This document shows positions 56,012-60,047 of a stretch of 64,000 nt of DNA, in pieces. Both the position numbers and the translations under genes were made by a program. The stretch is from Oscillospiraceae bacterium (GTDB lineage: Bacteria; Bacillota; Clostridia; Oscillospirales; Oscillospiraceae): positions 62,001-126,000 of the forward strand of contig CACYYN010000001.1 of NCBI GenBank assembly GCA_902778665.1, in the 5' to 3' direction. The notes beneath the pieces are model-generated. The model did not search any database. It was not told where the DNA came from and saw only the letters and a program-made list of their open reading frames with translations. Positions within the stretch are counted from its first letter, which is position 1. Each line of letters opens with the position of its first letter.

Positions 56012-56085
56012 GCGTTGTTAGCTCAGCTGGATAGAGCGTCTGGCTACGGACCAGAAGGTCGGGGGTTCGAATCCCTCACAGCGTG
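56012..56085 (+). tRNA. tRNA-Arg (anticodon ACG)
   Basis: A 74-nt tRNA: acceptor stem GCGTTGT with ACAGCGT (two G-T pairs), D arm AGCTCAGCTGGATAGAGC, anticodon loop CTACGGA between CTGG and CCAG, so anticodon ACG, and T loop GGTTCGAATCC. It reads CGU/CGC/CGA after A34-to-inosine editing. CCA is not encoded. It has its own promoter and terminator. Confidence 0.95.
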
Positions 56086-56094
56086 CTTACAAAG

Positions 56095-56255: not shown

Positions 56256-57026
56256 ATGTCAAAAAGCAAAATCTATCTGGTGCTTCAAACTGTGCTCTGT
56301 ATTCTTCTTGTGGCACTGCTTTGTGCATCGGCTGTCAGTATTTATCTGGAAGGAAGCGAACGTAAGGCAGCCAATCCACTGGAGTGGATTTATACACGCG
56401 ATGAAGCCGCTAAACGGTTTGCACCCATAGCTCCATTGTTTTTTGCCTCCATCGGCTTGATGTTGGCGGGGCTGATTCTTGAAATCAGGGATGAGAATCA
56501 GGATAAACCAGTCAAGGATGCCGAGATCAGTCGGGATCTTCTGGTTGCCCGTGTTTCGGAGCCCAGTGACGCAATGAAAAAGGAACAGGCTCTGCAGAAA
56601 AAATATCTGCTGGGCGGTTGGGCAGCATTCGGAGTTTGTATGATACCGATTCTGCTCTATATTACCAACGGAAACCATTTCCCTGATGGCAATCTGGAGC
56701 CGATGTTTTATTCTCTTCTGACTGTTTTCCTCCCGTGGACTACCGTGGGACTGGGGTGCCTGATGGTGACTTCTGTTCTTCGGGAAAAAAGCATGGTACG
56801 TGAAACGGAAGCGGCAAAAGAGCAGATGAAAACGGCAAAAGCGGCAGGGAACCAAGAGAAGAGCAAAACAGTTGATAAAACAGACCAGAAGCCGAGAAAA
56901 ATCCTGTGTGCAGTACTTCTTGTTGTTGCGGTGCTTTTGATTGTTGCGGGCGTTTTCAACGGCAGCGCGGATGATGTTCATCATAAAGCCGTTAATATCT
57001 GTACGGAGTGTGTTGGCCTTGGATAA
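56256..57026 (+). CDS. Membrane protein ending in a CD1871A-like CXXC tail
   Basis: A 256-aa protein with about five helices: YLVLQTVLCILLVALLCASA, APLFFASIGLMLAGLILEI, WAAFGVCMIPILLYI, FLPWTTVGLGCLMVTSVL and CAVLLVVAVLLIVAGVF. The last helix plus HHKAVNICTECVGLG (Cys249, Cys252) matches the short CD1871A family of CXXC proteins, here fused to a longer membrane protein. Those peptides often occur beside ferredoxin-type membrane proteins and TlpA, as here. It overlaps the next gene by 8 bp. AAAGGA is 6 nt before the ATG at 56256; ATG at 56253 is also possible. Function is inferred to be thiol redox. Confidence 0.78.
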   Translation: MSKSKIYLVLQTVLCILLVALLCASAVSIYLEGSERKAANPLEWIYTRDEAAKRFAPIAPLFFASIGLMLAGLILEIRDENQDKPVKDAEISRDLLVARVSEPSDAMKKEQALQKKYLLGGWAAFGVCMIPILLYITNGNHFPDGNLEPMFYSLLTVFLPWTTVGLGCLMVTSVLREKSMVRETEAAKEQMKTAKAAGNQEKSKTVDKTDQKPRKILCAVLLVVAVLLIVAGVFNGSADDVHHKAVNICTECVGLG

Positions 57027-59109
57027 TGTTAAAACAACATGGTGGCAAAGCCACCGTCCTACAACCCGGAGACTTGCACAGCTTTACAGTGCCCTTTTGT
57101 ATAACGCTCATCTGAGAGGCTTTATCGACGGTGAGATTTATCAGGGGGCGGCAAAATATGCCTGTGTCCCCGGCTTTAACTGCTATTCATGCCCCGGAGC
57201 GGTGGGAGCCTGCCCTCTAGGGTCTATACAGAATGCTCTCGCATCTACCGGGCATCGCGCAGGGTGGTATGTACTTGGCATCATTCTTCTCTTCGGGCTG
57301 ATACTGGGGCGTACAATTTGCGGATGGTTCTGTCCGCTTGGCCTTATTCAGGAGCTTCTTCATAAGATTCCAACACCGAAGCTGAAAAAGAGCCGCATCA
57401 CACGTGCGCTTTCTTATCTGAAATACGTAATACTTGCTGTATTTGTAATAGCAATTCCACTCTGGTATGGGCTTGCGCATGATATGCCTTTGCCCGGATT
57501 CTGCAAATATATCTGTCCCGCAGGTACTTTTGAGGGAGCAATGGGACTCCTCTCCAATCCGAATAACACAAACATGTTCAGCATGCTGGGAATTCTCTTT
57601 ACGAGAAAGTTTGTAATCATGCTGATTATCGGACTGGCCTGTATTTTCTGCTACCGTTCATTCTGCAGATTTATCTGTCCGCTCGGCGCTATTTACGGCC
57701 TTTTCAATCGGTTTAATGTGATCGGCGTCAAGGTTGATTCCAACCGCTGCAATCATTGCGGAAACTGTGTCCGAAACTGCGGGATGGATGTACGGCACGT
57801 GGGTGACCATGAGTGCATCAATTGTGCCAAGTGCATGGAAGTGTGCAATCAAAAGGCTATTTCGCTAAAAGCAGGCACGATCACATTGAGAGCTCCGGCA
57901 GGCGGTTGTGCCGATGATAAAGCGGATTCCGAAGCAAAGCGCAGGTCGTTAAGCCGCGTTATCTGGGGTGTTGCCCTTGCAGTGTTGTGCTTTGCGCTGA
58001 TCTGGTTTAACTGGCTGGATCCTGCATTGCCCAAAACGCTACAACCGAAGGAAAGTGCTGTTCCTTCTGCTTCTGCCCCTGTTGAAACAGTGCCGACACA
58101 GACGGAAGCTCCGGTATCTGCAACAACAGAAACCTATGAAAGCGAGGCACCTGTCGGCTATGACATAGGCAATCAGCTGGCAGATTTCACGATAACATGT
58201 CTGGACGGGTCGGAATTCCACCTGGCAGATACACGCGGCAAGGTAACATTCATCAACCTCTGGGCAACATACTGCACACCGTGTGTGCAGGAACTGCCCC
58301 ACTTCATTGACCTTTATAAAGAACACGAAGGGGATATCGCTATGATAGCGGTACATTCCTCATTGGTAACGGATGACCCGGCGGAGTATGTTAAATCCAA
58401 GGAGTGGACAGATATCTCCTTTGCGGTAGACACAGACGATGATCTTGTTTTTGGCATTGTAAACGGATCGTCTACACTTCCGCAGACAATCGTGCTGAAC
58501 CGCTCGGGAGAGGTGATATACAACCAGAAAGGATCCGTGACGCCTGAGATGCTGGAAGCCCTCTATGAGCAGGCATCGGGAGGAACCCCGATTTCCGCTG
58601 TTGAATCCGGAACAGCTCCTGCGAATGAATCCAGAACAGCTCCTGCAGAAGTGACATCATATTCCAGCGAGGCACCTGTCGGCTATGACATAGGCAATCA
58701 GCTGGCAGATTTTACGATAACATGTCTGGATGGTTCGGAATTCCATCTGGCAGATACACGCGGCAAAGTGACATTCGTCAATCTCTGGGCAACATACTGC
58801 ACACCGTGTGTACAGGAATTGCCCCACTTCATTGACCTTTATAAAGAACACGAAGGGGATATCGCTATGATAGCGGTACACTCTTCGCTGGTAACAGATG
58901 ACCCGGCGGAGTATGTTAAATCCAAGGAGTGGACAGATATCTCCTTTGCAGTAGACACAGATGATGATCTTGTTTTTGGCATCGTAAACGGATCGTCTAC
59001 ACTTCCGCAGACAATCGTGCTGAACCGTTCGGGAGAAGTAATATACAACCAGAAAGGATCCGTGACGCCTGAGATGCTGGAAGCCCTCTATGAGCAAGCG
59101 AAAGGCTGA
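57019..59109 (+). CDS. NapH-type 4Fe-4S membrane protein fused to two tandem TlpA thioredoxin domains
   Basis: A 696-aa protein. The membrane part has an N-terminal Cys site (CYSCPGAVGACPLG, Cys55/58), CGWFCPLG (101/105), CKYICPAG (162/166), CRFICPLG (216/220) and two 4Fe-4S clusters: CNHCGNCVRNC (244, 247, 250, 254) and CINCAKCMEVC (266, 269, 272, 276). A further helix (about 314-334) leads outside to two TlpA/ResA-like domains (about 375-519 and 550-694), each with WATYCTPC (Cys419/422 and Cys594/597). The start chosen is TTG at 57019, SD GGAGTG; GTG at 57010 is possible. Inferred role: cross-membrane electron transfer to extracytoplasmic thiols. Confidence 0.85.
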   Translation: MDNVKTTWWQSHRPTTRRLAQLYSALLYNAHLRGFIDGEIYQGAAKYACVPGFNCYSCPGAVGACPLGSIQNALASTGHRAGWYVLGIILLFGLILGRTICGWFCPLGLIQELLHKIPTPKLKKSRITRALSYLKYVILAVFVIAIPLWYGLAHDMPLPGFCKYICPAGTFEGAMGLLSNPNNTNMFSMLGILFTRKFVIMLIIGLACIFCYRSFCRFICPLGAIYGLFNRFNVIGVKVDSNRCNHCGNCVRNCGMDVRHVGDHECINCAKCMEVCNQKAISLKAGTITLRAPAGGCADDKADSEAKRRSLSRVIWGVALAVLCFALIWFNWLDPALPKTLQPKESAVPSASAPVETVPTQTEAPVSATTETYESEAPVGYDIGNQLADFTITCLDGSEFHLADTRGKVTFINLWATYCTPCVQELPHFIDLYKEHEGDIAMIAVHSSLVTDDPAEYVKSKEWTDISFAVDTDDDLVFGIVNGSSTLPQTIVLNRSGEVIYNQKGSVTPEMLEALYEQASGGTPISAVESGTAPANESRTAPAEVTSYSSEAPVGYDIGNQLADFTITCLDGSEFHLADTRGKVTFVNLWATYCTPCVQELPHFIDLYKEHEGDIAMIAVHSSLVTDDPAEYVKSKEWTDISFAVDTDDDLVFGIVNGSSTLPQTIVLNRSGEVIYNQKGSVTPEMLEALYEQAKG
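58141..58575 (+). repeat. Tandem TlpA repeat, copy 1
   Basis: 435 bp, coding 145 residues from SEAPVGYD to LYEQA. Copy 2 starts 525 bp further. The copies differ at 22 positions by eye, 21 of them silent. Confidence 0.95.
58666..59100 (+). repeat. Tandem TlpA repeat, copy 2
   Basis: The second 435-bp copy, about 95 percent identical to copy 1; the only amino-acid change is Ile to Val in KVTF(I/V)NLWA. The 90-bp linker between the copies encodes GTAPANES/RTAP-type Ser/Thr/Ala sequence. Confidence 0.95.
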
Positions 59110-59120
59110 AAAAATAAAGA

Positions 59121-60047
59121 ATGGAAAACAGAAGCCTTATGAAAAGAATTCTTATAATCGGTTTATGTGTTATTATGCTTTTTCAGAGCGTTCCTGCTGT
59201 TTTCGCGGCCGGCGAATCAGAAGAAGCGATAGCCAATCTTTCTTTAGAGAATATTGATGTCTCTTTAGCAGAACCGGAAGAAAAAGACGATAATGTGGTT
59301 AATATTCTTCTTCTAGGGACGGATGAAAAACTTGCATATACGCATGATGTCGGCAGATCAGACTGCACGATGCTTGCGTCTTTGAATGTTAAGACCGGTG
59401 CTGTCAAGCTGGTTTCATTCGAACGCGGGATAATGGTTGAGGTGCCCCCTGAACAGGCTGAAGGAAGAACATCAGATCTTCTGACGCATGCTTTTCACTG
59501 GTGTGGCGCAGATTATATGGTGCAGATCATAGAGAATAATTTTGGTGTTGATATTGACGGCTACGCTCAGGTTGATTTCTTTGAGTTTGAGAAAATAATA
59601 GATGCTATCGGCGGAATAGATGTTGACATCGAATATATGGAAGCAATAATGATGAATTATGCCCCCCCTGTCCAGACACAGGAGCACATGCTGCTGGGAA
59701 AAAATCATCTCAACGGCCATGATGCAATGGTTTACTGTCGCCTGCGATCTTCTGATGATGATTGGGGCCGACAGGCACGGCAGAGGAAAGCTGTACAGGC
59801 AGTAATCAAAAAGCTGAGTTCAATGGGTGTGATAGAGGCAGTTTCTGCTATGGACAGGGTCTTACCTCTGATTCATATGGATATTTCTCCAATTGTACTG
59901 GCAAAGATTGCATTACATGCAGGGCAATTCCTGAATACGGAAATACAACAGCTCCAGGTCCCTGAAAAGAATCAGGATGAAGACGGATATATTGCCTGTG
60001 ACTTTATGAAAGAGTCTGAGCGGATAAGTGAATTCCTGGCGGAGTGA
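59121..60047 (+). CDS. LCP-family (LytR-CpsA-Psr) protein
   Basis: A 308-aa extracytoplasmic protein. After a signal-peptide-like start (RILIIGLCVIMLFQSVPAVFAAG) the LCP domain follows: VVNILLLGTDEKL, DVGRSDCTMLASLNVKTGAVKLVSFERGIMV, LNGHDAMVYCRLRSSDDDWGRQARQRKAVQAVI. LCP enzymes attach glycopolymers to peptidoglycan or related surfaces. The usual PRD motif is replaced by SFERG, seen in a clostridial subgroup. The AFA-AG end suggests a cleavable signal rather than the usual anchor. SD is weak; ATG at 59139 is an alternative. Confidence 0.85.
   Translation: MENRSLMKRILIIGLCVIMLFQSVPAVFAAGESEEAIANLSLENIDVSLAEPEEKDDNVVNILLLGTDEKLAYTHDVGRSDCTMLASLNVKTGAVKLVSFERGIMVEVPPEQAEGRTSDLLTHAFHWCGADYMVQIIENNFGVDIDGYAQVDFFEFEKIIDAIGGIDVDIEYMEAIMMNYAPPVQTQEHMLLGKNHLNGHDAMVYCRLRSSDDDWGRQARQRKAVQAVIKKLSSMGVIEAVSAMDRVLPLIHMDISPIVLAKIALHAGQFLNTEIQQLQVPEKNQDEDGYIACDFMKESERISEFLAE

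Follow-up and report, generated by a model that had tools for sequence, protein, structure and literature searches.

The gene pair

Two overlapping genes make up the locus, which lies towards the end of the window, as the whole stretch of 64,000 nucleotides that was analysed is called here. P0001 (56256..57026) encodes a membrane protein of 256 amino acids with a C-terminal CXXC tail. It overlaps with P0002 (57010..59109), whose product counts 699 amino acids when read from a GTG codon and combines a NapH-like iron-sulfur membrane part, a last membrane helix and two TlpA domains. Both genes and the features mapped within them are located on the + strand, and both reading frames were confirmed at the coordinates of the first-pass annotation. 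A tRNA-Arg gene is found upstream of the pair (56012-56086). For P0002, two in-frame starts come into consideration, GTG at 57010 and TTG at 57019. The overlap of 8 bp that had been proposed holds for the TTG start, while the GTG start gives an overlap of 17 bp. Residues are numbered here from the GTG, so that the earlier Cys419/422 and Cys594/597 become Cys422/425 and Cys597/600.

Five transmembrane segments are predicted in P0001 (residues 13-31, 57-75, 118-136, 157-175 and 216-234). Its final 37 residues (220-256; 56913..57023) belong to the CD1871A family of NCBIfam (NF040920, 41.7 bits against a cut-off of 32), which bears out the earlier proposal of a CD1871A-like tail with Cys249 and Cys252 on a longer membrane protein. 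The C-terminus reads ICTECVGLG, with Cys252 only four residues from the end, and hydropathy and the charge rule predict it to lie outside the cell. The tail ends exactly with the motif C-x2-C-x-G-x-G in 79 of the 80 named loci (the 80 best among 576 relatives). Pfam hints of TctB and Trp_oprn_chp on P0001 were discarded, as they scored below the cut-offs and did not reappear in five long homologues.

The iron-sulfur membrane part of P0002

P0002 is a member of the Fer4_5 family (PF12801, 59.4 bits against a cut-off of 22). Its scores stay below the curated cut-offs for NapH, with 74.6 vs 213 bits for TIGR02163 and 59.9 vs 234 for PRK09477. Judged by these profiles, the protein is NapH-like and not NapH. 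The first-pass annotation had counted at least ten conserved cysteines in the membrane part along with two 4Fe-4S motifs, and this count proved accurate: 18 cysteines, ten in the membrane part and eight in the ferredoxin motifs, are conserved in every sequence of two alignments (19 and 30 sequences). The N-terminal motif C52-x5-C58-x2-C61-x6-C68 (57163..57213) was found in 188 of the 192 NapH-type rows scanned, and the rows without it include one from a locus with a tail (L232) and three from loci without (L267, L268 and L270). Three CX3CP motifs follow, namely motif 1 (C104 and C108; 57319..57336) at a helix end that is predicted to be cytosolic, motif 2 (C165 and C169; 57502..57519), predicted outside, and motif 3 (C219 and C223; 57664..57681), predicted on the cytosolic side. 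The two ferredoxin motifs (C247/250/253/257 and C269/272/275/279; 57748..57846) are likewise predicted to be cytosolic. Their 4Fe-4S Pfam matches remain below the cut-offs; both C-x2-C-x2-C-x3-C motifs are nonetheless there.

Hydropathy indicates four membrane segments in P0002 (88-106, 133-151, 195-213 and 313-331). The loop 107-132 contains six Lys/Arg residues and is assigned to the inside, the loop 152-194 contains only one and is assigned to the outside, and the loop 214-312, with fifteen Lys/Arg residues and the ferredoxin motifs, is again assigned to the inside. The residues before 88, including the four-cysteine motif, would therefore lie outside. The last membrane helix (307-336 in the structure model; 57928..58017) would carry the TlpA domains outward. 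The helices of the structure model (mean pLDDT 77.6, pTM 0.56) are placed in agreement with this topology. The membrane part is modelled with moderate confidence, as blocks of ten residues between 21 and 200 average 51-87. The model contains an extra helix at 19-39, possibly a fifth one in the membrane; the N-terminus would then be inside, with the four-cysteine motif still outside. A cytosolic location of the TlpA domains would have spoken against the first-pass interpretation, and both these domains and the CXXC tail of P0001 are predicted outside. From the predicted topology, we infer that C104/108 and C219/223 face the inner side, and C52-68 and C165/169 the outer side. With a profile of the NapH part, matches to 227 solved sequences were obtained. 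Among the 60 listed, the best stretches fall within positions 218-286, the ferredoxin region, and the membrane part has no solved counterpart among them.

The TlpA domains and their tandem duplication

The two C-terminal domains (58159..58584, active site C422-TP-C425, and 58684..59106, active site C597-TP-C600) were identified by both domain and fold matches. Redoxin is matched in two stretches (106.2 bits against a cut-off of 26.6), placing them in the Redoxin family with the TlpA-type thioredoxin fold, and confirming that two TlpA domains stand behind a final helix as first read. C422, C425 and P491 are invariant in 42 rows. The best fold matches of P0002 are 4nmu and 1st9, which have a ResA-like fold, and all among the 50 matches listed are thioredoxin-fold structures; a viral fold library returned mostly thioredoxin- and peroxidase-like matches. 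The ResA model PRK03147 scores 149.3 bits across both copies, below its curated cut-off of 170.

The two domains are encoded by a DNA repeat (58141..58581 and 58666..59106, spacing 525). The copies are in register and 94% identical over the 441 nt compared, with 23 synonymous and 2 non-synonymous differences in 147 codons. The repeat is a recent or homogenised tandem duplication under protein constraint. It exceeds chance but is a local event: a fused chain with both of two TlpA copies intact was found only in the window and in L136, while in L121 the first copy is weak. The presence of donor and two acceptors in a single polypeptide had been called unusual on first reading. This applies to the two acceptors. 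For the fusion as such it depends on the sample, as NapH and TlpA are fused in 62 of the 80 named loci (the best 80 of 576, chosen by similarity), so that a chain with one TlpA domain is common among the closest relatives, vs only 3 of the 71 loci scored in the class sample.

Conservation of the tail-NapH pairing

The pairing was followed at several taxonomic levels and from both partners. In the order, a search of 197 genomes seeded on the tail family found it in 22 genomes at 24 places. Leaving the window aside, 23 places remain, and at 22 of them a NapH-like gene directly adjoins the tail and a TlpA gene is located beside it or fused. The exception is genome G009, where the tail (L048) and NapH with TlpA (L071, without an adjoining tail) are on different contigs. 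In the class, a search of 391 genomes seeded on NapH gave matches at E below 1e-40 in 70 genomes, at 72 places. Two of these are the window and a place in G118; the remaining 70 loci (L197-L266) were examined. The tail adjoins NapH or is fused to it in 69 of them, 68 by the scoring rule and L266 with a split NapH match. In the 70th locus (L207) the contig breaks off, and an in-frame CLECIGIG end is present at the contig start. Only weaker NapH relatives occur in seven class genomes, and none of the four examined (L267-L270) has a tail or TlpA in the stretch.

Of 36 further genomes from the same genus as the window, 16 contain the NapH part (E below 1e-60), and the tail is found in 16 of the 17 loci; in L074, no tail was detected beside NapH. 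Tail and NapH-like part adjoin or are fused in all 80 named GTDB loci, the best 80 of 576 relatives. Across the phylum, the tail family was matched in 60 of 398 genomes (45 over the cut-off), and NapH adjoins the tail at all of the 30 best among these 60 places, the window's own place not being counted; two of the 30 recur in the class sample. The pair as claimed in the first-pass annotation is thus kept across Clostridia, and by these comparisons of sequences tail and NapH form a conserved module.

The TlpA domain is less constant. Of the 71 loci scored in the class sample, 59 have it either fused or inside the distance limit, the misses including L267 and L268. L238 was scored negative only because the domain lies far along the adjoining gene, and in L207 and L265 the contig breaks off. 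No TlpA match was obtained in the stretch for seven class loci that are flanked on either side (L214, L224, L228, L231, L241, L258 and L259), and the same is true for the genus loci L066 and L067. In three loci (L153, L197 and L198, the latter two from one genus) the tail is located at the C-terminus of NapH itself, and a fusion of tail and TlpA was found in none of the scanned frames. A structure model of the L153 fusion, intended to reveal contact between tail and NapH, is too poor for that purpose (pLDDT 60.6, pTM 0.35), and no fold match to it reached an E value below 4.

The partner TlpA gene has TGA in place of the codon for the first active-site cysteine in five loci (L217, L221, L222, L223 and L233), all of one family. 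L215 is a sixth case, in which the locus is cut soon after the TGA. Going by the codon position, the TGA probably encodes selenocysteine, as expected of a redox enzyme. A review already lists TlpA-type selenoproteins with a UxxC motif (PMC13188914).

Neighbouring genes

Neighbouring genes were clustered over 41 loci, and ten neighbour proteins were scanned for domains. In the clustering, no enzyme was seen to recur beside the cassette across lineages. Within the order, the recurrent neighbours among the ten proteins are a two-component system, a pseudouridine synthase and an aminotransferase. A response regulator is located near the cassette in L028, L032, L033 and L036, accompanied by a kinase in L032 and L033, which hints at regulation in those loci. 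The pseudouridine synthase and aminotransferase are apparently ordinary genes of related genomes. The downstream LCP and SpoIIE genes were rejected as partners, with no LCP match and one partial SpoIIE match in the available flanks of 99 loci. Carriage by a mobile element was also considered; relatives occur on just one plasmid record and two scaffolds labelled as phage, which is insufficient for such a reading.

CcdA/DsbD, quinone genes and possible clients

The first-pass annotation had noted the absence of a CcdA/DsbD gene from the window. This observation extends to the whole genome, in an assembly that is 84% complete: neither PF02683 nor PF13386 is matched, and a CcdA homologue that could serve the TlpA domains instead was not encountered. 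In the order, PF02683 is matched in 2 of 22 tail genomes vs 66 of 175 others (Fisher p 0.008, inflated by shared ancestry). In the class, CcdA occurs in 21 of 70 genomes with NapH vs 175 of 321 without (p 0.0002, likewise inflated by shared ancestry). Collapsed by genus, the depletion becomes weaker (19/49 vs 99/174, p 0.035, inflated in the same way; 118 or 119 genera with CcdA by two counts). At most, it can be claimed that the module and CcdA are partially interchangeable. It is not a strict replacement, because the 21 class genomes mentioned have both.

Three further proteins with a Redoxin domain are encoded in the window's genome. Two of them (L163 and L164) have a start that resembles a signal peptide by eye; the third (L165) was read from an internal start only. 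Genes for quinone synthesis were looked for as well, and neither menB nor MqnA/D is matched in the same 84%-complete genome.

Proposed mechanism and alternatives

The pair probably functions as an outward electron-transfer module for thiols. Low-potential electrons from the cytosol, most likely from reduced ferredoxin, would enter at the two 4Fe-4S motifs of P0002. They would next pass to an iron-sulfur centre at the inner face of the membrane, held by CX3CP motifs 1 and 3, and then to a centre at the outer face, made up of the N-terminal four-cysteine motif together with CX3CP motif 2. At the outer centre, the electrons would be converted into a dithiol, aided by the P0001 CXXC tail. Either the tail or the outer centre would reduce the tethered TlpA domains, and these in turn would reduce disulfides that have been exported, or further oxidised targets. 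The module would thereby take the place that CcdA/DsbD has for thiol proteins in other systems. The domain content, the invariant cysteines, the pairing and fusions, the lack of a CcdA match in this genome and the lower frequency of CcdA in genomes with the module are shown by the sequences. These findings support the interpretation given in the first-pass annotation, where we infer the donor, the outward direction, the order of the relay with the tail as a member, and the clients. Ferredoxin is suggested as donor by the motifs, and the anaerobic physiology of Clostridia fits with it. The sides of the membrane on which the clusters lie follow from the predicted topology.

Several other readings of the same parts have to be weighed. 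The one that comes closest is a variant of the mechanism just described, in which the tail would act as a ligand that completes the outer iron-sulfur cluster. The cluster would then reduce the TlpA disulfide directly, in a manner resembling ferredoxin:thioredoxin reductase, and P0001 would not be a thiol relay. This variant is a serious, if somewhat less favoured, possibility. The tail appears closer to NapH than to TlpA, because it is almost never separated from NapH while some loci lack a TlpA in the vicinity, and the count of three tail-NapH fusions against zero tail-TlpA fusions points the same way. However, a CXXC motif beside an extracytoplasmic TlpA domain also looks like a relay, and the closeness to NapH would fit relay and ligand alike. 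The donor might also be a quinol, as in NapH, to which P0002 is homologous; the lack of menB and MqnA/D matches makes a quinol donor less likely, and we consider it improbable.

The direction and purpose of the electron flow can be questioned in the same way. The same parts would serve an inward flow, in which the module oxidises exported thiols in a DsbB-like manner and passes the electrons to cytosolic iron-sulfur acceptors. The TlpA domains, however, match best to ResA, which is a reductant family, and matches to CcdA, an outward reductant path, are rarer in genomes with the module. With the usual potentials, moreover, electrons run downhill from ferredoxin to a disulfide and uphill in reverse, and an inward flow is therefore unlikely. 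Nearly the same is to be said of a purpose other than thiols, for instance the reduction of metals or the maturation of a cofactor, where TlpA would assist the enzyme concerned. Some loci indeed have no TlpA match, and NapH-like proteins serve several outlets according to a published survey (PMC8238504). The clustering over 41 loci and the domain scan of ten neighbour proteins gave no enzyme that recurs beside the cassette across lineages, which leaves this purpose rather unlikely. The outward thiol module remains the preferred reading.

Relation to known systems

In NCBI annotation, the parts of the module are found elsewhere under generic names. On a plasmid of Peptoclostridium acidaminophilum, the genes for a CD1871A-family protein, a 4Fe-4S binding protein and TlpA are annotated separately. 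There, too, the CXXC gene overlaps with the 4Fe-4S membrane gene, and the TlpA gene is two genes away. The window differs in that its CXXC protein has four additional membrane helices and its iron-sulfur protein two fused TlpA domains.

CcdA/DsbD relies on two membrane cysteines, which receive electrons from thioredoxin, to supply proteins of the ResA/TlpA type. The same kind of TlpA would be supplied across the membrane here, in contrast by iron-sulfur motifs, and the two systems have no family match in common (PF02683 and PF13386, the membrane domains of CcdA/DsbD, are not among the Pfam matches of P0001 or P0002). Ferredoxin:thioredoxin reductase is comparable in that an iron-sulfur cluster reduces a disulfide, as would be the case here. 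That enzyme is soluble, however, and its families are not among the Pfam matches of the pair.

NapH-like proteins have been proposed as transmembrane iron-sulfur conduits to extracytosolic flavin domains (PMC8238504). In both cases a PF12801 iron-sulfur membrane protein would lead to an extracytosolic redox domain. The outlet there is an FMN-binding domain, whereas in the window it is a thioredoxin-fold TlpA domain, and a near-constant CXXC partner is added; the N-terminal four-cysteine motif may be a further difference. No FMN-binding domain is among the Pfam matches of P0001, P0002 and the three downstream genes, and the term 'TlpA' is absent from the main text of that study by term count. 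In the open-licence literature of PubMed Central, searched by title and start of the abstract, no description of the module was found (papers elsewhere could contain one), and no published function was found there for the plasmid genes named above or for the CD1871A family. The module would add a thiol outlet to NapH-like electron transfer.

For Clostridia in general, chances are about even that a further thiol-reducing export route exists, consisting of a ferredoxin-fed iron-sulfur wire with a near-constant CXXC tail, which is partly interchangeable with CcdA/DsbD and in which wire and thioredoxin-fold outlets can be fused. In Clostridia like the one analysed here, TlpA-type domains are predicted outside the cell and CcdA/DsbD is unmatched, and the module is a candidate for their electron supply. 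If this is true, the energy metabolism based on ferredoxin would be linked to the cell surface, and the curated family CD1871A would gain a role.

Genomic context of the cassette

The gene for the CXXC-tail membrane protein and the NapH-like gene were seen unlinked in a single genome (G009), where the tail gene (L048, 6857-6994) and the NapH-TlpA genes (L071, 3382-4811) lie on separate contigs. Near the cassette, a two-component system is found at loci from the order (L028, 6815-7531; L032, 4554-6322; L033, 7765-9575; L036, 4985-6756). Its response regulator is present in all of these, and the histidine kinase was confirmed in L032 and L033. In the window, a LytR-CpsA-Psr gene (59121-60047) starts 11 bp past P0002, the NapH-like protein with two TlpA domains; no such gene was found in the available flanks of 99 related loci.

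The window's own genome encodes a second NapH-like protein, distinct from P0002 (L166, contig C57, 6781-7647), which sits at a contig end and lacks the N-terminal four-cysteine motif. A further NapH relative, with a tail motif immediately upstream, is encoded by a human faecal scaffold (L272, MT836098.1) whose record is unverified and labelled 'Bacteriophage sp.'; the scaffold is possibly a bacterial fragment mislabelled as phage.

Variation among the TlpA domains

Three additional Redoxin/TlpA-domain proteins are encoded by the window's own genome (L163, L164 and L165). Judged by eye, the N-terminal start of two of them (330 and 792 aa) resembles a signal peptide. CcdA, the usual electron supplier of TlpA domains, gave no match in this genome. 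In G211, each of two cassettes adjoins a protein (L061, 2430-3785; L062, 1794-3122) that is about 450 residues long and carries a TlpA domain in the middle of its chain; the one read full-length (L061) has a hydrophobic segment close to its N-terminal start.

Elsewhere, an intact TlpA domain appears to follow a first TlpA-like copy that lacks the CXXC, as suggested by a weak profile match in L121 (residues 448-549) and by eye only in L147 (about 560-680).

In one family, the first active-site cysteine position of the partner TlpA is a TGA codon (UxxC; L217, L221, L222, L223 and L233), and likewise in L215, where the sequence is cut. These partner TlpA proteins are probably selenoproteins.
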